In this document: piece by piece, positions 30,200-40,754 of the stretch
Numbering within the stretch: position 1 is the first letter of the stretch
Layout of the letters: each line of letters opens with the position of its first letter
Origin: an uncultured Chlorobiaceae bacterium
Lineage (GTDB): Bacteria; Bacteroidota; Chlorobiia; Chlorobiales; Chlorobiaceae
DNA length: 40,819 nt
NCBI GenBank assembly: GCA_903843305.1
Contig: CAIMPI010000049.1
Coordinates: 1-40,819 of the forward strand
Direction: 5' to 3'
Position numbers and translations under genes: made by a program
The notes under the pieces: generated by a model
What the model saw: the letters and a program-made list of their open reading frames with translations, nothing else
What the model was told of the DNA's origin: nothing
Database searches by the model: none

Positions 30200-30681
30200 G
30201 CACAAAAACCGGTAATTCTTTCGGTGATCCTTTCTTATTGTCCTGTTTCAGCAATATCTTGCATGAAGATAACAATGCAAACAGGAGCTACTGGCCCGAC
30301 TTGGTGAAGAATGAACCAGAACAGTAAACAGGAGTTATCTACGTTCTGGTACAGAGAGGAAGTATCTGTTTTTTCAGAATTAGGCAGATCATTTTAAACA
30401 ATATTAGGCGTATATCAGCCAAGTACAGCAATTTTTTGCAAAAATATATCTGACGACAGTCAGGCCTATACGGCAGGATTGGCTCTGTAAAGATGATTTT
30501 GTCAGGGGGATATACAAGTTACCGCCAAGTGTAAAAGGACAGAAACGACAGACATAAATTGAAAACCATTGTGAAAGGACAGAAAAACGACATATTGACA
30601 AGACAAGAAAGCCAACACTCAAGCATCAATGTTTTTTATTTTTTGCCCACAGCACATTTTTTAAAATAATTGCCGACCCAC
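30200..30681. other. Non-coding stretch before the DISARM-like cassette
   Basis: I see no gene. A 17-19 base direct repeat, AAAGGACAGAAACGACA at 30534-30550 and the same with two extra A at 30574-30592, is spaced 40 bases apart. It may be part of the junction between old chromosome and imported DNA. Confidence 0.5.
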
Positions 30682-30747
30682 ATTGCACAACATTGCCAAA
30701 GCCCCACAAGCCTACGCTGAAACCAAAGATTTGTCAAAGAGTGCAAT
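30682..30747. repeat. Left copy of the structured repeat flanking the drm cassette
   Basis: The arms ATTGCAC (30682-30688) and GTGCAAT (30741-30747) are perfect inverted repeats around a core at 30691-30740. The core matches the right copy (38889-38938) at 44 of 50 positions in the same orientation. The arms differ in sequence between the copies but remain self-complementary in each. Confidence 0.8.
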
Positions 30748-30787: not shown

Positions 30788-33160
30788 ATGCTTCAAGCAC
30801 CAGTAAAATATCTTGATTTATTAATAACCAATGCTGGTATTGAGAAAAATATTTCTTTGCTTATAAATCATTATATTCAGATCTGTGCTAAGAGTTTACA
30901 TTTTATTATTGATGAAAAGGAATTAAATTTTGCTTCAATATTTGGTAATCTGTGCCACGAATTAAGTTTGATAAACAGCTATTTCAATTTTGAAATTGGC
31001 AATAAAGTTATTTCACTTCAACATCAAAAATATATTTATTATATTATTTCATTAGGAAAGGAGATTACGCTAAAAGATAGCAATTTAACAGTAACAACAA
31101 GGTCATTAAATGAATATATTCCGCTTTCAAATTCCACTATTACACAAATAGGAACAATTAATAATAGAATAGCCGATTATAAGGAATATTTCAGAGCAAA
31201 AAACCAATGTGATTTTATTAACAATGAAAAACTATTGGTAGTAGGGAACAGAAATTTATTCATTTCTATTCCTAAAGAATATCCTGCTTGTTTCGTTTCA
31301 AGAAACGAAAATGAAATTACAGAGATTGAATACAACTCCCCTTTGTTGCCAAAGATTACTGTTCTGAAAAACATCAATCTGCTTGACGATTATCTGCAAC
31401 AAGAAATAAACGGCAATCAAATAACATTCAACACTTGCATTTTTGTTGGAAGTTCAAAATTTGAACACTCAATAAATGTTATCCGCAATTATTATAACCA
31501 AAAAATATTTGCTAAAGCAGTTTTCATTGGAGAGAAAGACATAAAAATTGAATTGGGAAACAATCAAGTGCCGCTTAGATGGAAGTGGACAATCCCTGAA
31601 ATAAATTTTTTCAAAAGCGAAAGAAACATTCAGCACAAACCAATCATTATTCAGAACAACGAACTTGAAAAGGCAATTGCGGACTTTTATCAGGTAGTCC
31701 GAGAAATTGAAAGCAGACACACGATTGGCTTGAAATCAATCTACCGTTTTATCAGAAGACTTTACTATGACTGGAATCTAAAACAGGAAACAACTTTCAC
31801 AAAACATCACCAAATACAAGAGGAGTTTAACATTGAGTTGAAGAAACTTCTGATTGAAACCCTTGGGAATATTTTTCAGGACTTTAATTTTGATGAGTAT
31901 CAAATACCGCTTTCAGCAAAGTTTGCGGAAATCATAAAGGCAGTAAAAAACAACAACAAAAATGAAAAATTAAAATCCTATCAAACCAAAATTCATCAGC
32001 TTATTTTGCCTTCTTTTTTATGCAATGCTAACAAAGCAGAGCTGAATGAAATTGCTAAACAATCAGAGCATCATGTTGGAGTAAAATCACTTCAAGGCAT
32101 TACACATTTGCAAAAAGCAGAAACACAACATTCAAACAACGCGAATAGGAATTTTTATTCACTCACAGCAAACGGAACGAAAACTGAAATTCTTTCTTAC
32201 TCCAAAAGTGATGATTCAAATTATGAATACCACAAAGTGATTTCTTCAATTTACGGAAGCGGAAAAGTTAAAAAGTTGATTGAACGATTAGGCAGAGCCA
32301 AATCCGAATACAAACTTTTGCTTTACAGTATTGAGGAAAAAGCATTGAAGCATCACATTGAAGTCTACATTTCAGATTTAAACAAAGAATACATTTCGCA
32401 AGACCGTTTTCAGATTAGCGGAGTTGAATTCAGCGACAACTATTATCAGTTTTCAAGCTACGATGAATTGATAGAAGCACTTGCTTCAACCAAGCACGAC
32501 CATAGGGAAACCGATAATTACAAAATAACTTTTACTGACAAGAGTAAATTGAAACTTCCGTCAACCAAAACAGTTTTGAAATTTTCAGGCAATGAAAAAT
32601 ATCTTGTGTTGGTTGAGGATTTGAATGTTGGTGATAAAGTTTTGATTTACATAAACCCAGATAAGAAACTTTTGCGAGACATAATGGAATTGAAAAATCC
32701 CGAGCTAATGAAAAAGGCAGAGGAATATTCAAAACTTTGGAGAAGGTGTTTGTATGATGCTTATCAAGCCAACATAATGGCTGAACCGCTTTATCAGCAG
32801 TTAGTGAGAAATCACTTTTCGGTTAGTGAATTTACTTTCAGAAAATATCTTGATGGAGAAGTAATGTTTCCAAGAAGTTTTTCTGACTTAATCATTATTG
32901 CAAAAATTATAAATGATTCCCGACTTTCGTTTGACTTTTTGAAAAACACAATGAAACCAAAAATTGAAGAATACAGGGGAATGGAAATTGAATATGGTTT
33001 CAAATTTAGCAACAGCATTAACCATTTCATTATTTCAGGAGAGGAAGACGATTTTATTTCCCAGTGGTTGACGAAAAATGAAATTGAAAATATCGTTTCA
33101 CAAATCCAAGTCAAAACCATTAAAGACATTGAACAAATAACGCAAAACAACGATGACTAA
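30788..33160 (+). CDS. drmE: DrmE-like protein of a DISARM-type system
   Basis: The protein has 790 residues and is encoded by AT-rich DNA. No enzymatic motif is visible: no Walker A, no methyltransferase glycine-rich motif, no nuclease signature. The position directly before drmA, the length and the absence of an SNF2 helicase domain match DrmE, the class 2 DISARM component of unknown function, and not DrmD. A central helical part (about 300-430) is followed by a mixed region and, near residues 650-740, a conserved-looking C-terminal module (KVLIYINPDKKLLRDI, then KLWRRCLYDAY and FTFRKYLDGE). The stop overlaps the drmA start by eight bases (ATGACTAA). No Shine-Dalgarno sequence precedes the ATG, as is usual in Bacteroidetes. 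The name is inferred from context and remains the least certain of the three. Confidence 0.6.
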   Translation: MLQAPVKYLDLLITNAGIEKNISLLINHYIQICAKSLHFIIDEKELNFASIFGNLCHELSLINSYFNFEIGNKVISLQHQKYIYYIISLGKEITLKDSNLTVTTRSLNEYIPLSNSTITQIGTINNRIADYKEYFRAKNQCDFINNEKLLVVGNRNLFISIPKEYPACFVSRNENEITEIEYNSPLLPKITVLKNINLLDDYLQQEINGNQITFNTCIFVGSSKFEHSINVIRNYYNQKIFAKAVFIGEKDIKIELGNNQVPLRWKWTIPEINFFKSERNIQHKPIIIQNNELEKAIADFYQVVREIESRHTIGLKSIYRFIRRLYYDWNLKQETTFTKHHQIQEEFNIELKKLLIETLGNIFQDFNFDEYQIPLSAKFAEIIKAVKNNNKNEKLKSYQTKIHQLILPSFLCNANKAELNEIAKQSEHHVGVKSLQGITHLQKAETQHSNNANRNFYSLTANGTKTEILSYSKSDDSNYEYHKVISSIYGSGKVKKLIERLGRAKSEYKLLLYSIEEKALKHHIEVYISDLNKEYISQDRFQISGVEFSDNYYQFSSYDELIEALASTKHDHRETDNYKITFTDKSKLKLPSTKTVLKFSGNEKYLVLVEDLNVGDKVLIYINPDKKLLRDIMELKNPELMKKAEEYSKLWRRCLYDAYQANIMAEPLYQQLVRNHFSVSEFTFRKYLDGEVMFPRSFSDLIIIAKIINDSRLSFDFLKNTMKPKIEEYRGMEIEYGFKFSNSINHFIISGEEDDFISQWLTKNEIENIVSQIQVKTIKDIEQITQNNDD

Positions 33161-36100
33161 TTACAGAGATTCATTTTATAACGAAGTTCAAAAAGGATTA
33201 GTTGGAACAGGTTCTGACATTTTCGGAGTTTCCGACACTGAAGAACTTATTTCAGATTATCCTTTGAACAGATACTATTCAGGAATTCTATTTCCGAATA
33301 AAGATTTTCCAACAGGTAATCCAAAAACGGAAGAAGAAATAGAAAGCAATAGCAACCTAGCAGAGACAGACGAAAACGATTATGATAACGCAGAGGAGAA
33401 AAAACCAACAGGAGATTCAGAGGAGAAAGTAGAATCAAACGAAGAAGATAATGCTCAAACATCAGACACACAAGATTACCAGTTAATTCAAAATGCATTT
33501 TTTCCAACACACATTGGATTTACATTTTGCATTGAGCCGGAAAAATTTATTGGAGTAAATTTTTTATTCGGAATTTACGATTATTTAGAACAACCACAGC
33601 CCGAAATAAAAATTGCAATTTCAAAAGAAGGTTTTGAAAGTTTCTTTGACACAGAAATTGAAACACTACTTTCGTTTAAAGACATTCTTACTTACAACGA
33701 TGGCTTTATGCAACTTTCAAGAAAGTTAAACGGAAGCAGAGGCGGTAGAGAAAAGAGAAGTGGAGAGTATCTGGACTTTGACAAATTCAAAAACTATAAG
33801 AACATAGGCAAGAAAGAAGTTTATAAGTATATCCACTTGCTTGAAAAACTTTTAGGCAGAATTTGGAAGAGAGAGGAACACAAAATCACCGAAGAAGTTG
33901 AGATAAAAAATACAAAGGAGCCAAAGGAAATATTTCGAAAAGAATACGGCAGCCAGATTCTTTCAGTTGGATACATGGTAAAGACCTATGAATACAAAGG
34001 CAACAACTATGTGAAAATATTATTGCTCAACAACTCAAATCACCCTTCAAACAAATACAGCAACTCAAATGAAAATTTGAATCGGAAATGTTTGTTCCAA
34101 ACAAATATTACAGTTGAAAACATTTCTCTCAAACCCTACAAGTCACAATCTGAACTACATCCGTTTGACGAGGAGCAAAACGAAATCAATTTCATTTACC
34201 GAGACATCAAGAGCTATGGAGTTGGACACAATTGTTCAGTGCAGTGGAATGATTCACCCAAACCGAATTTCATTCAAACAGCTTTCATGCCTGAAAGAAT
34301 TGTTTACGGAATGAAGAATGATTTTTCCAAAGAAGATTTTCAAAATGATTTTGATGCTTTGAATAAATGTTTGGAAGTAAAACAAATTTCTCATTTCAAT
34401 GACGACAAGAAGGGAATCATCAAAAGTTTAAAGCTGTTTATTTCTCTTTATGAAAAATGGATTTCAGCACAACAAACAACTGCAAACAGTTTTAACTGTG
34501 AGGAAAAGATAATCGCAAACAAACTTGTAGGCAGACAAGTAGAAAATCACAAACGGTTAATCCGAGGGATTGATATTTTAGAAAAAGACAAAAGCGGAAA
34601 TACTTTTCGTTGTTTTCAGTTAGCGAACACTGCGATGTTTATTCAAATGATAATAAGCAATGACGGGCGATTTGGAAATAAGGAAAGAAACTTCATTGAT
34701 GAAGTTGAGAAGGCAGATTACAATTCACTAAAGTTTTTTGAAGATTACAATGACTGGATATTTATCAATCCTGATAAGGCAGAGCCACCACGATACAGAC
34801 CTTTTCAGTTAGCATTTCTTCTTTTAAGCATTGAAGGAATCATTGATGAAAATTCAGACGACAGAAATAAAATTGTTGACTTGATTTGGTTCCCAACTGG
34901 AGGAGGAAAAACAGAAGCATATTTGGCAGTTGGAGCATTTACAATTCTTTGGAGACGATTTAGCAACGATTCAGAAACTTCAAAGGGAACAAGTATTCTC
35001 ATGCGTTACACTTTGCGTTTGCTGACTTCACAGCAATTTGAAAGAGCATCACGGTTGATTTTAGCATTAGAATTTTTGCGGAGAAACTTTGAAGATGTAT
35101 TACACAAAGAAAAAATTTCAATAGGACTTTGGGTTGGAGAAGGTGCATCACCAAACAATATCAAAGATGCTGATGAAATTGTTCAGAGAGCATTTGGGGG
35201 AAATTGGGAAAATGCACATCAGCATACAAGTAGATTATTACTGACCGCTTGTCCTTGGTGCGGAATTAAGTTAGCACCAAAGACAGGTGAGGCAGAATGG
35301 GCAAAGGGGCATGGCTACGAATGTCAATCAGGCACACATGGATATTTTTATTTCAAGTGTGTAAATAACGAGTGTGCGTTTCATGCAAGCAAGTTGCCTA
35401 TACAGGTAGTTGATGAAATGCTTTACAAGCAACCGCCAACACTTCTTTTTGCTACAGTAGACAAGTTCGCAATTCTTGCTTCACAGAAAGAAGGCGAGAC
35501 ACATAAATTTTTCAATTCGTTTTCTGATGCTCTCCCTCCCGACTTGATAATTCAAGACGAGTTGCACTTGATTAGTGGACCATTAGGTTCAATTGTCGGC
35601 ATCTTTGAAAGTGTGGTAGATTATTTGTGCACTAAAGGAAACCGCCGTCCAAAAATTATTTCATCCACAGCAACAACACGAAACACTTCACATCAAATCA
35701 GTGAACTGTATGCAGGGAAGCAAGTTAATATTTTTCCACCATCAGGAATTTCATACAACGACAGTTTCTTTGCTAAAGAAACTGTCAGCAAGAGAAAGTA
35801 TGTTGGTTTTTTGCCAACAGGAAAAACAGGAATCAACACCCAACTTTGGATTCTACCTTACTTGCTTTATACACGAATCAAACTTTACAACGAAAATGAA
35901 TTGTCAACTTTGGATTTGTATTGGACAATTGTTTCTTACTATAACTCACTGAAAGATGTAGGAAAAATTTACAACAAGACGAATGATGAAATTCAAATCA
36001 ACACTAATGTTTTGTTTTACCGAAACTTTGGCAACAACTCTTTTCTTCGTTATCTGATTAGAGATATTGACAGCCGTTCACTTGAACTCACAAGCCGAAT

Positions 36101-36812
36101 TGAAAGCAACAATATCAAGGCAACTTTGAAAAGATTGGAAGATGTATTTGCAACTGAAACTTCAGAAAAAGGAAACGAATATGTGAAAGATGGTTTGGAT
36201 TTAGTGTTGGCATCCAACATGATTTCAGTTGGTATTGATGTAAGCAGATTGAATGTGATGTTGGTAAATGGAATGCCAAGAAACATTGCCGAATACATAC
36301 AAGCGAGCAGTCGTGTAGGCAGACGACATGACGGAATTGTTTTCACTTTGTTCAATCCCAATCAGGCAAGAGACAAATCTTACTTTGAAAACTTCAATTC
36401 ATTTCATCAAGCGTATTACAAATTTGTTGAGCCGTTGAGTGTAACTCCATTTACTGAAAACACAATTCACAAAATGCTAACAACAATTTTAATTGCGTTC
36501 ATGCGAAACAGTGTTTCGGGTTTGACAAAAAATTCAGATGCAAAACATTTTACGCCTGAAATGGCTGCTGGTTTCAAAGAATACATTACACAAAGATATG
36601 GTAACAGCGATTACTTGAACACTTTACTTGATGATTTGATTAAGAGTTGGACAACAAAGAAAACCAGAATCAACAATTTGACTTACTCAACTCTTTTGAA
36701 AAAGACATCATCCGATGTTAATCCGTTTGAGGAAATTTGGTTAACGATGAATTCACTTCGTGATATTGACACGGAAACTTATTACAGAATAAACGACTTG
36801 GCAACAAATTAA
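33153..36812 (+). CDS. drmA: DrmA helicase of a DISARM-type anti-phage system
   Basis: This is a 1219-residue superfamily 2 helicase. Residues about 57-110 are an acidic low-complexity stretch. The Walker A motif WFPTGGGKTEAY covers about 579-590, the DEAH-like box reads IIQDELHLISGPLGS (Asp802), STATTRN serves as motif III, SVGIDVSRLNVMLVNGMPRN as motif V and QASSRVGRR (1050-1058) as motif VI. Between motifs lies a Cys-rich zinc-binding insert (about 700-750) with CPWCG and CxxxxC. In DISARM, DrmA with DrmB forms a core complex that recognises and blocks incoming phage DNA. The gene overlaps drmE and ends two bases before drmB. Intact, AT-rich, no Shine-Dalgarno. Confidence 0.88.
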   Translation: MTNYRDSFYNEVQKGLVGTGSDIFGVSDTEELISDYPLNRYYSGILFPNKDFPTGNPKTEEEIESNSNLAETDENDYDNAEEKKPTGDSEEKVESNEEDNAQTSDTQDYQLIQNAFFPTHIGFTFCIEPEKFIGVNFLFGIYDYLEQPQPEIKIAISKEGFESFFDTEIETLLSFKDILTYNDGFMQLSRKLNGSRGGREKRSGEYLDFDKFKNYKNIGKKEVYKYIHLLEKLLGRIWKREEHKITEEVEIKNTKEPKEIFRKEYGSQILSVGYMVKTYEYKGNNYVKILLLNNSNHPSNKYSNSNENLNRKCLFQTNITVENISLKPYKSQSELHPFDEEQNEINFIYRDIKSYGVGHNCSVQWNDSPKPNFIQTAFMPERIVYGMKNDFSKEDFQNDFDALNKCLEVKQISHFNDDKKGIIKSLKLFISLYEKWISAQQTTANSFNCEEKIIANKLVGRQVENHKRLIRGIDILEKDKSGNTFRCFQLANTAMFIQMIISNDGRFGNKERNFIDEVEKADYNSLKFFEDYNDWIFINPDKAEPPRYRPFQLAFLLLSIEGIIDENSDDRNKIVDLIWFPTGGGKTEAYLAVGAFTILWRRFSNDSETSKGTSILMRYTLRLLTSQQFERASRLILALEFLRRNFEDVLHKEKISIGLWVGEGASPNNIKDADEIVQRAFGGNWENAHQHTSRLLLTACPWCGIKLAPKTGEAEWAKGHGYECQSGTHGYFYFKCVNNECAFHASKLPIQVVDEMLYKQPPTLLFATVDKFAILASQKEGETHKFFNSFSDALPPDLIIQDELHLISGPLGSIVGIFESVVDYLCTKGNRRPKIISSTATTRNTSHQISELYAGKQVNIFPPSGISYNDSFFAKETVSKRKYVGFLPTGKTGINTQLWILPYLLYTRIKLYNENELSTLDLYWTIVSYYNSLKDVGKIYNKTNDEIQINTNVLFYRNFGNNSFLRYLIRDIDSRSLELTSRIESNNIKATLKRLEDVFATETSEKGNEYVKDGLDLVLASNMISVGIDVSRLNVMLVNGMPRNIAEYIQASSRVGRRHDGIVFTLFNPNQARDKSYFENFNSFHQAYYKFVEPLSVTPFTENTIHKMLTTILIAFMRNSVSGLTKNSDAKHFTPEMAAGFKEYITQRYGNSDYLNTLLDDLIKSWTTKKTRINNLTYSTLLKKTSSDVNPFEEIWLTMNSLRDIDTETYYRINDLATN

Positions 36813-36814
36813 CT

Positions 36815-38863
36815 ATGGCAAAATATTTTAAAAAAGGAAACACTCAGCGAACAGTGAAACGCTTTATACATACACAGACACGAAAAGCAGTTACAGCAAC
36901 ATCGGGGGTTCAGGCAATTATTGAAAGTCCAGTTGGTGCTTTCAAAGTGATGGACATAAATCACTGGTGGTTTTTCAATTCAAACAATCCGAGCAACTAT
37001 TTACTTACAGATGATGATGGCAACTACATTTTTGAAATCAAAGAACCCCGTTTGCTGAATCGTTTAAGAGGCACAGGGATTTTTCAGAATCTTCAAAGGT
37101 TGATTCAAGTTCCGCCAAATGCACAGAACGAGGACAACAGGTTAATGCCAGCAAAAGAAAATCAAGTTGGCAGAGTAGAATATTTTCCAAACTGGTTTTT
37201 TTGTGAAACATGCGAAAGATTTAAACCGATTGCTGAATGGTGGAATGGTTGGCAAGATGTATTGAGAAATGACGAAGGAATAAATGACCAAGATAGAATA
37301 AAAGAACGATTTATTTATGACACGAAACTTTCAGGCCGACCAAATTGCTTTTGCTGTTACAAGGAAAATTTGCTGAAAGGAAAACCGAGAAGAAAGTTTC
37401 ACAAGTTGGAGCAAGTTCGTTTTGTTTTTGTTTCACCTGATGGTGATATAAGAGATATTGATTGGACAAAATGGATTACAGCAGAACGATTAGGAGCCAA
37501 CAACACAGATGAAGAAACAGAAGGGCTTGAAAGCGGAAGATATGTTTTAGGACAAGACCCTTGTTGCGATAATGTTTCTCTTACTTATCAGCGTTCCACA
37601 AAACTTTCTGACTTAGCAGGTATCACCATTCAATGCGAAAGTTGCAACCGCAGAAAAACATTGGCAGGTTTCTTTAATCTTAGAAGGAAAAAGGGAAACA
37701 TCACTGACAGCCAACACAAAACTTATCCAGTATACTTCAAGCCGCTAATCAGAACAAGCAACAGCATTTACTATCCGATTGTGATGAATAGTTTGTTCAT
37801 TCCGCAACCTGAAATAAAACTATCACACGACCAAAAAGCCACTATCAGATTATTAAGCACGACAGGTAATTCAGCAGAGCAGATTGCGGCAGTTACAAAA
37901 ATTGCTTTGAAAGTTGTTCAGCAAGTTTTAGGCGAAGGAGTTTATTTAAGTGAGAATGATTTTCGCAAAAATGAATATCACTATTTACTCAACGAGTATC
38001 AATACTTGCTTAACACAGGAAACTTTGAATCAGTGGAAAAGGATTTAATCCTTGAAGATATTCCGCTAAATGATGAATTGAAAAATTTTGGCTTTGACAA
38101 AATCATAAAAATCAAACGGCTGAAACTTACTTCTGTTCAAACTGGCTATACAAGATTAAGCCCAATGGATAGAGATACATTTTCAAATAGCAGAGATAAG
38201 TTTATTCGCTTTGATAACAAAGACATTCCATTAAAAGCAAAGTTCACCATTGCTAAGCCAAACGAGACAGAGTATTTGATGGGAGTTGAAAATTTTGGTG
38301 AGGGAATTTTTATAAAATGGAATGATGAGAGAATGAAATCTTTCATTGACACTTTTATGAAAAATGAAAAGTCAAAAACGGAAATCATTTCGCTTTATCA
38401 AATAGTTCAGCAGAACGAAATGATAAACAAAGACAAGTTCGAAAACACAATTCATTTAGCAAAGACAGTTTTGATTCACAGTTTCTCTCACTTAATCATT
38501 AAGGAGTTAGAATTTCTTTGTGGCTATCCTTCTTCTTCTGTTTCGGAAAGAATTTATTGCGACAGTGACACAATGAACGGACTTTTGATATACACTATTG
38601 CAGGAAGTGAAGGAAGTTTTGGTGGATTGATTAAGCAAGCAGACAGCGAAAACTTTTCAAAGATTTTATCTTCTGCATTATTGAGAGCCAGAGATTGCAG
38701 TAGCGACCCGATTTGTTATGAAAGCGATGGGCAAGGAGTTGGAGGACTTAATTTCGCAGCTTGTTATTCGTGTTTACTGATTAGTGAAACATCTTGTGAA
38801 GAATACAATTCATTTCTTGATAGAAAAATAATAATAGACAAAAATTATGGTTTCTTTAGATAA
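36815..38863 (+). CDS. drmB: DrmB, DUF1998-domain partner of DrmA
   Basis: The 682-residue product carries the DUF1998 domain in its last 150 residues: HSFSHLIIKELEFLCGYPSSS from His555, SERIYCDSDTMNGLLIYT, GSEGSFGGL, CSSDPICYE and CYSCLLISETSCEE. Four further Cys pairs (CETCERF, CFCCYKE, PCCDN, CESCNRRK) lie between residues 128 and 290 and probably bind zinc. DUF1998 proteins form complexes with helicases; DrmB is the DrmA partner in DISARM. The gene follows drmA by two bases. No DrmC (phospholipase-D-like nuclease) or methyltransferase gene follows; the next feature is the right repeat. Confidence 0.88.
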   Translation: MAKYFKKGNTQRTVKRFIHTQTRKAVTATSGVQAIIESPVGAFKVMDINHWWFFNSNNPSNYLLTDDDGNYIFEIKEPRLLNRLRGTGIFQNLQRLIQVPPNAQNEDNRLMPAKENQVGRVEYFPNWFFCETCERFKPIAEWWNGWQDVLRNDEGINDQDRIKERFIYDTKLSGRPNCFCCYKENLLKGKPRRKFHKLEQVRFVFVSPDGDIRDIDWTKWITAERLGANNTDEETEGLESGRYVLGQDPCCDNVSLTYQRSTKLSDLAGITIQCESCNRRKTLAGFFNLRRKKGNITDSQHKTYPVYFKPLIRTSNSIYYPIVMNSLFIPQPEIKLSHDQKATIRLLSTTGNSAEQIAAVTKIALKVVQQVLGEGVYLSENDFRKNEYHYLLNEYQYLLNTGNFESVEKDLILEDIPLNDELKNFGFDKIIKIKRLKLTSVQTGYTRLSPMDRDTFSNSRDKFIRFDNKDIPLKAKFTIAKPNETEYLMGVENFGEGIFIKWNDERMKSFIDTFMKNEKSKTEIISLYQIVQQNEMINKDKFENTIHLAKTVLIHSFSHLIIKELEFLCGYPSSSVSERIYCDSDTMNGLLIYTIAGSEGSFGGLIKQADSENFSKILSSALLRARDCSSDPICYESDGQGVGGLNFAACYSCLLISETSCEEYNSFLDRKIIIDKNYGFFR

Positions 38864-38875
38864 AATAATGCCAAC

Positions 38876-38949
38876 GCATTTGCAAGCACATTACCAAAGC
38901 CCCACGAGCCATCGCTAAAACCAAAGCTTTGTCAAAGAGCTTGCAATGC
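38876..38949. repeat. Right copy of the structured repeat flanking the drm cassette
   Basis: The arms GCATTTGCAAGC (38876-38887) and GCTTGCAATGC (38939-38949) are inverted repeats, with one unpaired base, around a core at 38889-38938. The orientation is the same as the left copy. The arms differ in sequence from the left copy's but pair equally well. It begins 13 bases after drmB. Confidence 0.8.
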
Positions 38950-38981: not shown

Positions 38982-39287
38982 GCCAACACTTAAAAAATAA
39001 AAAACGCTGACACACAAGCCGAAAGAAAAGAAAGAAAGTAAAATGACAATGATACGGAAACTGAATAATGACAATGGTTTACAAGACTGGAAGAATGAAC
39101 ATCAGGCGGTAACAAAGTGTAGCAGCAATAAGGGTTTCAGTAGTAATTCAAGCATTCTACCCCGCATATAATTTAGTGTCGGTGGACAGTTTATTAGCCC
39201 GCAGTCCCTTACTGCTTCTACTCTCAACCGTTAAATCATCATTGCCGCCGCGGCTTCTCTTTTCCCCGCCCACCCAAAAAGCAACCC
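38982..39287. other. Non-coding junction right of the cassette
   Basis: The composition turns from AT-rich to GC-rich here, near 39180-39240. A 43-codon ATG frame (39042 to about 39173) has no ribosome-binding site or recognisable product. Nothing else is seen. Confidence 0.4.
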
Positions 39288-40384: not shown

Positions 40385-40678
40385 TCACCCATTATCTGCG
40401 AATCCTTTTTCTATAAGAATACTTTCATATTCGCTTCTGCTTAACGGGCATTTAATGAGGTCACTAAATTGCTTATTGTTGAGCTTACATTGCGTTGCCA
40501 TATATGAGAGAAGCCCATCGGGTATATCTTTTCCACCTTTGCCGTGTGAGGTTTTTGTTCTTACCCTGCTTTTTTTATTGGTTTGAGTAAAATAGATGAA
40601 ATATGAGTGGTCTGTTTCAATTCTTTTGAAACCTTTTAGCTCTAAAGCGGAATCTACATCTCTTTTTTTAAATGGCAT
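40385..40678 (-). CDS. HicA-like (YcfA-like) toxin or orphan
   Basis: Starting at ATG 40678 the product has 97 residues. The first half fits the HicA double-stranded-RNA-binding-like fold: KRDVDSALELKGFKR, the catalytic-type His in DHSYFIYF and KTSHGKGGKDIP. The second half (LLSYMATQCKLNNKQFSDLIKCPLSRSEYE) is longer than in classical HicA and typical of a widespread uncharacterised subgroup. No HicB partner is visible on either side. The frame continues ten codons upstream (to 40708), but that part is likely insertion-sequence end DNA rather than gene. Confidence 0.6.
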   Translation of the reverse strand: MPFKKRDVDSALELKGFKRIETDHSYFIYFTQTNKKSRVRTKTSHGKGGKDIPDGLLSYMATQCKLNNKQFSDLIKCPLSRSEYESILIEKGFADNG

Positions 40679-40754
40679 TAGTGTCATGTCAAGAAAATAA
40701 TGTCGCATAAAATGCTTATATTTTCTTCATACTCAACCCAAACCCGGATTGATC

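Follow-up and report, generated by a model that had tools for sequence, protein, structure and literature searches.

The locus described here raises the question of whether a DISARM operon reduced to drmE, drmA and drmB, with no methyltransferase gene of its own, can constitute a distinct defence system. The operon lies on contig C49, the whole of which (40,819 bp) was analysed and is referred to as the window; the host genome of 2.59 Mb is assembled in 55 contigs and is 99.94% complete. Three tightly packed open reading frames, all free of interruptions, follow one another on the forward strand, to which all coordinates below refer unless stated otherwise: drmE (30788..33160; 790 residues), drmA (33153..36812; 1219 residues) and drmB (36815..38863; 682 residues). 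The first two overlap by 8 nt and drmB starts 2 nt past the end of drmA. These frames lie where the original prediction of a methyltransferase-free DISARM variant had placed them, and the helicase motifs quoted there are present.

The operon is AT-rich, with a G+C fraction of 0.31–0.38 against 0.42–0.55 in most of the flanks, and on both sides the flanking DNA matches genomes of the same genus at up to 89–95% identity. Because both flanks match the host genus, we regard the operon as an insertion in host DNA rather than part of a contaminant contig, and a misassembled boundary is unlikely. As had been claimed, the DNA immediately beyond it contains no drmC or drmMII: neither drmC nor any drmM gene was found beside it in the contig, where the next frame of at least 100 residues is 424 nt away on the opposite strand. 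No gene for a PLD protein, our test for DrmC at the locus, adjoins the operon; PLDc_2 genes are present elsewhere in the host genome and were not identified as DrmC. Neither DrmD nor DrmMI is encoded next to the operon. Close to the right end of the contig there is a frame for a HicA-like toxin, scoring under the Pfam cut-off (40385–40708, reverse strand).

The assignment of the helicase to DrmA and of the DUF1998 protein to DrmB is upheld by matches to curated DISARM families and to the solved Serratia DrmA. Against the window DrmA, a YprA/DrmA-family SF2 helicase, the PADLOC DrmA model scores 617 bits, with DISARM models far above DruE or DpdJ; the NCBIfam model DISARM_DrmAS gives 779 bits, under its cut-off of 950; and the Serratia protein (PDB 7s9v) is matched with E=3e-118. 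The catalytic motifs are in place, namely the Walker A sequence PTGGGKTE at residues 581–588 (34893..34916), DELH at residues 802–805 (35556..35567) and motif VI, QASSRVGRR, at residues 1050–1058 (36300..36326). The DrmB chain, a DUF1998/MZB protein, scores 308 bits with NCBIfam DrmB_fam (cut-off 240) and contains a Pfam MZB domain at 33 bits (cut-off 24). Its cysteines 628, 634, 650 and 653 have the spacing C-x5-C-x15-C-x2-C found for C559/565/581/584 of Serratia DrmB, a comparison made from the sequence and the residue numbering of PMC9142583.

Identification of the 790-residue protein was less direct. The PADLOC DrmE models match neither this protein nor the clade relatives tried, and its score with Pfam DrmE_C (PF24957) is sub-threshold at 25 bits (cut-off 27); relatives in the same operon position pass that cut-off, at 42 and 32 bits. 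Alignment with DrmE, on which the original assignment hinged, was obtained when a profile of 50 window-type proteins was compared by hhalign with the class 2 DrmE profile (682 columns, probability 99.8%, E 2.5e-29). From the DrmE_C match, the relatives above the cut-off and the profile–profile match taken together, we conclude that the protein is, on sequence comparison, a divergent DrmE with a DrmE_C-like C-terminus. A search of PDB sequences with the DrmE profile gave no significant match. An AlphaFold model of the window DrmE (mean pLDDT 81) resembles MDA5, Hef, Chd1 and DEAD/DEAH helicases, with Foldseek E-values down to 1e-7 and, in VIA, a Z of ~12 over residues 12–529, and a separate model of a class 2 DrmE (pLDDT 82) matches RIG-I and XPB. 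Whole-chain TM-scores are low, 0.2–0.4, so that the match is one of two-lobe arrangement and not of close superposition. DrmE shows no conserved GKT or DExH motif, and its residues Y8, P166, E271, K391 and R540 are invariant. We infer from the predicted models that DrmE is a non-catalytic subunit of the RIG-I type, with an SF2-helicase-like fold. We found nothing in the literature on the fold of DrmE, and this is the first hypothesis for it that we have encountered. In one sub-branch (L061, L063, L065 and L070) DrmE is split into two adjacent genes of ~150–330 and 500 residues, the second beginning within the end of the first.

To place the operon among its relatives, 84,980 species genomes were scanned with a DrmA alignment and the best 80 DrmA relatives were retained as loci; these, the window and two plasmid loci make up the locus gene table. 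In a quick IQ-TREE tree of 87 DrmA rows, the window protein belongs to a clade of 58 with an SH-aLRT of 100, and in 53 of 59 loci drmE, drmA and drmB are adjacent on one strand in intact order. A survey for the three-gene set ending at drmB, proposed with the original prediction, found it in about 50 other loci among the best 80 DrmA relatives, mostly in Bacteroidota. The closest of the copies listed is in a Bacteroidetes MAG (DrmA 93%, DNA 90% over 8.2 kb), and the next among the best 80 are in a Nitrospirae MAG (DrmA 75%) and an Omnitrophota MAG (70%); since the nearest copies sit in these three groups, we conclude that the operon crosses phyla. A search for DrmE in 296 genomes of the host phylum found it in the window alone, and viral contigs yielded no relatives.

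A linked C5 methyltransferase occurs in none of the 58 members of the clade, as against 24 of the 29 other rows of the tree. For those loci from the window, the plasmids and the genome scan that have 5 kb or more of flank on each side, the count is 0/26 in the clade and 17/18 for the nearest other DrmAs (Fisher p ~3e-11, ignoring relatedness), a contrast that covers the near neighbourhood of this DrmA and not all DISARM because the scan retained the best 80 only. An independent C5 profile run over the clade flanks gave no match. An unlinked drmM had been suggested as a possibility, and the host genome, at its 99.94% completeness, contains no match to the C5 methyltransferase family PF00145; among the other clade host genomes PF00145 is present above the cut-off in 24 of 49 and absent from 25. 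Other species of the host genus have five DISARM loci with different DrmAs: a C5 methyltransferase is encoded close to four of these, and none was seen for the fifth, on a 10.9-kb contig. The DrmEAB set without a C5 methyltransferase is a recurring lineage and not a local loss.

Among methyltransferase motif candidates scanned near clade loci, an MmeI-type enzyme directly downstream of the operon in L037 is the only real one; those in L043, L044 and L066 proved to be metabolic enzymes and that in L069 a Schlafen-type helicase. Cluster c4 was considered as DrmC in class 2-like loci and rejected: it is a NERD/UvrD-type helicase-nuclease, found within or beside the operon in many class 2-like DISARM loci (L075, L077, L079, L080, L081, L083, L085, L089, L091, L095, L097 and L116–L119).

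In the Serratia system, the trigger loop of DrmA selects 5'-overhang DNA, and Val1296 is the sole base-contacting residue and the proposed methylation sensor, valine being reported at this position in >98% of the top 250 homologues (PMC9142583). In the same study methylated DNA still supports ATPase activity, and DrmC is dispensable (PMC9142583). An acidic segment of the window DrmA (residues 49–117, 33297..33503; 21 D/E and 5 K/R) occupies the place of the trigger loop and aligns weakly to Serratia residues 157–247; its position and acidity suggest that it is the equivalent of that loop. It is kept in the window and in both DrmA groups, clade and outside, with a run of unknown bases at this point in L064 and a truncation in L076. 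The Val1296 position maps by alignment to the V of SMR-x-V-D/E, close to the C-terminus of DrmA, and is Ile1205 in the window (codon 36765..36767). In the aligned proteins, isoleucine is found in 43/57 and valine in 14/57 of the clade, whereas outside it all 29 have valine and 0/29 isoleucine (Fisher p 2e-12, ignoring relatedness). The frequent isoleucine suggests relaxed selection on methylation sensing, although the link is correlative and the change from valine to isoleucine is a conservative one.

The operon is bracketed by structured repeats. One, noted in the original prediction, follows drmB (38881..38945); a second, unmentioned there, precedes drmE (30682..30747). Members of the family are hairpins made up of an outer stem of 7 bp, an ACA/AGA internal loop, an inner stem and a conserved inner loop, and the downstream copy differs from the upstream one in stem sequence. 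Stem pairs covary: with the structure set by hand and then counted, on a set that includes copies chosen for their pairing, 93% of stem positions are paired, with 61 double changes against 17 in shuffles, and slid controls reach at most 51%. In an initial alignment of the repeats the stems were out of register, for which reason RNAalifold gave no pairs. Rfam has no family matching the upstream hairpin and gave one insignificant match to the downstream one. With a covariance model, the hairpin is detected on both sides of drmEAB in the window, L024, L025, L028, L030, L058, L070 and L088, and on one side in L021, L031, L032, L039 and L057.

Beyond the hairpins, the left outer end GTTACCGCC (30518..30526), which is integron R-box-like, is the exact inverse of the start of the right outer end (39105..39236). 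The latter consists of GGCGGTAAC (39105–39113) and an imperfect palindrome ending GTTAAAT, which is putatively attC-like (z -2.1 only). For the 9-mer pair GTTACCGCC/GGCGGTAAC, 0.04 GTT pairs are expected per cassette, and outer inverted matches of at least 9 bases that start with GTT and are not T-rich runs occur in 14 of 19 hairpin-bracketed cassettes, with <0.1 expected in each. The GTT...AAC inverted ends and the putatively attC-like palindrome recall integron gene cassettes, from which the element differs in its 8.6-kb multi-gene cargo and in the additional covarying hairpins just outside the genes. A further difference is that no intact integron integrase scores above the cut-off in the host genome, where the best match is a fragment with stops, and the integron-like mobility of the cassette is for this reason offered as a proposal. 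In another genome, G059, a XerA/IntI-like recombinase, likewise under the cut-offs, adjoins a cassette array.

The same hairpins surround other cargo. A second cassette in the host genome (L131, G000:C9:5365-9682) carries a type II restriction-modification system of two methyltransferases and one restriction enzyme. In G059 (L132, G059:C24:1-12500, with L133 and L134), the array contains a large helicase-type defence candidate (Hhe/PDC-S37) and an apparent heavy-metal cassette, and other parts of that genome encode a type IIG enzyme as well as an efflux operon of the CusA/CzcA kind. Two further cassettes, L136 and L137 (G053 and G049), encode MkoA/MkoB-like proteins and an AbiU-like protein, with some genes common to both and two additional middle genes in one. 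On a Persicobacter plasmid (CP012852; L017, 8007–14078), the hairpin pair encloses a different operon, encoding a BrxD-like ATPase and a DEXH helicase.

Comparison with known systems places the operon closest to DISARM. With class 2 (DrmE, DrmA, DrmB, DrmC, DrmMII) it shares the core order drmE-drmA-drmB, a DrmE homologous over most of its length, and DrmA and DrmB of DISARM families. It differs in that the window operon has no DrmC, the clade has no linked DrmMII and the host genome has none at all; its DrmE is too divergent for the PADLOC models, and most clade members have isoleucine at the Val1296 position. Since DrmMII and DrmC were sought and are absent from the locus, we class it as a new DISARM variant and not as class 2. 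Class 1 (DrmD, DrmMI, DrmA, DrmB, DrmC), which includes the Serratia system with its solved DrmAB, resembles it in possessing DrmA and DrmB, in the acidic loop at the trigger-loop position and in the DrmB cysteine spacing; unlike class 1, the window has no DrmD, DrmMI or DrmC, and DrmE, with a predicted helicase-like fold that has no motifs, stands in place of the SNF2 helicase DrmD. ARMADA, Druantia, Dpd, BRIGADE and TALON, the YprA-family defence systems treated in the available passages of PMC12458937, also combine a YprA-family helicase with a DUF1998 module, but in the window the two are separate genes, with no fused nuclease recognised. In those passages, separate genes for the two parts are a hallmark of DISARM, and many uncharacterised DISARM-like classes are noted in this 2025 preprint; a DrmEAB-only variant is not described in them (PMC12458937). 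We found no literature on methyltransferase-free DISARM.

We propose, with a probability of about 0.6, that the operon is a DISARM variant of DrmE, DrmA and DrmB only, which has no methyltransferase and relies on DNA structure, its function being putative. By analogy with the Serratia structure, DrmA and DrmB would form an autoinhibited helicase complex in which the acidic loop near the N-terminus of DrmA closes off the DNA channel. A single-stranded 5' overhang, as on incoming or replicating phage DNA, would open it by displacing the loop, so that the host's own DNA would escape attack because of its structure and not because it is methylated. Judging from the models, DrmE most likely serves the complex as a subunit without catalysis, binding DNA or selecting the substrate. 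There is no linked nuclease in the operon, and the effector step is probably an arrest of phage replication by translocating DrmAB, to which a host nuclease may or may not contribute. Bracketed by the structured repeats, the operon would move as one cassette. A broader proposal joins these elements into a third kind of DISARM: methyltransferase-independent, with self spared only by DNA structure and DrmE as a non-catalytic RIG-I-like SF2 subunit, spreading between phyla as a complete operon in a kind of integron-like cassette that also carries other defence systems. As a whole it is tentative, and we hold it rather less firmly than an even chance.

The operon might instead retain self-marking, provided in trans by host enzymes unrelated to it, chiefly the N6-adenine methyltransferases of type I systems. 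Such marking is conceivable because these enzymes are common in the host, which has ~9 strong N6_Mtase matches of type I-like character, and lie beside some clade loci: an HsdM-like cluster (c6) is close to five of them, including the closest relative, L018, HsdR-like genes are close to Hymenobacteraceae loci, and the MmeI-type enzyme of L037 is immediately downstream. The description of the system as methylation-free thus applies to operon content and to cytosine methylation of the DrmMII type, and does not extend to DNA methylation in general. The neighbouring genes are, however, not conserved, and the base-contacting residue of DrmA appears relaxed rather than conserved. Moreover, type I target sequences differ between strains, so that a mobile cassette could not rely on any one of them. 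We consider marking in trans unlikely. That DrmE possesses an unrecognised effector activity, for instance as a nuclease replacing DrmC, is a quite improbable reading; it would account for the retention of DrmE in a clade without DrmC and DrmM and for the five invariant residues, but both DrmE models match SF2 helicases, and their top matches, which barely cover the C-terminal part, include no nuclease fold.

Kinship of DrmA and DrmB with the YprA/MrfA superfamily, and the Pfam name of the DrmB domain, MrfA Zn-binding, would suit a complex that, like MrfA/YprA, repairs DNA or maintains the genome. The best matches are nevertheless to DISARM DrmA and DrmB, and the helicase and DUF1998 parts are in separate genes, as is typical of DISARM in the available passages of PMC12458937. 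The distribution is also patchy and the cassette mobile, restriction genes lie beside several copies, and sister cassettes hold defence genes; we regard a role outside defence as very doubtful. A decaying, non-working DISARM that has lost drmC and drmMII would explain the lack of two genes that belong to class 2 as described, but the three frames are open, the catalytic motifs are undamaged, and many lineages in several phyla retain this gene set, so that this account is extremely improbable and already strongly disfavoured. Overall, the sequence evidence supports the original interpretation of the locus as a methyltransferase-free DISARM variant.

DrmEAB-only loci are probably under-reported, because DISARM as strictly defined in the PADLOC paper requires a methyltransferase and DrmC (PMC9252829) and the PADLOC DrmE models miss the window protein and the clade relatives tried. 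Two ways in which DISARM could avoid attacking its own host have been proposed, sensing of methylation and sensing of DNA structure (PMC9142583). A lineage that has the DrmAB core and the acidic loop but no cytosine methyltransferase separates these two ideas, and the clade provides natural material with which to test whether DISARM needs DNA methylation to distinguish self from non-self.
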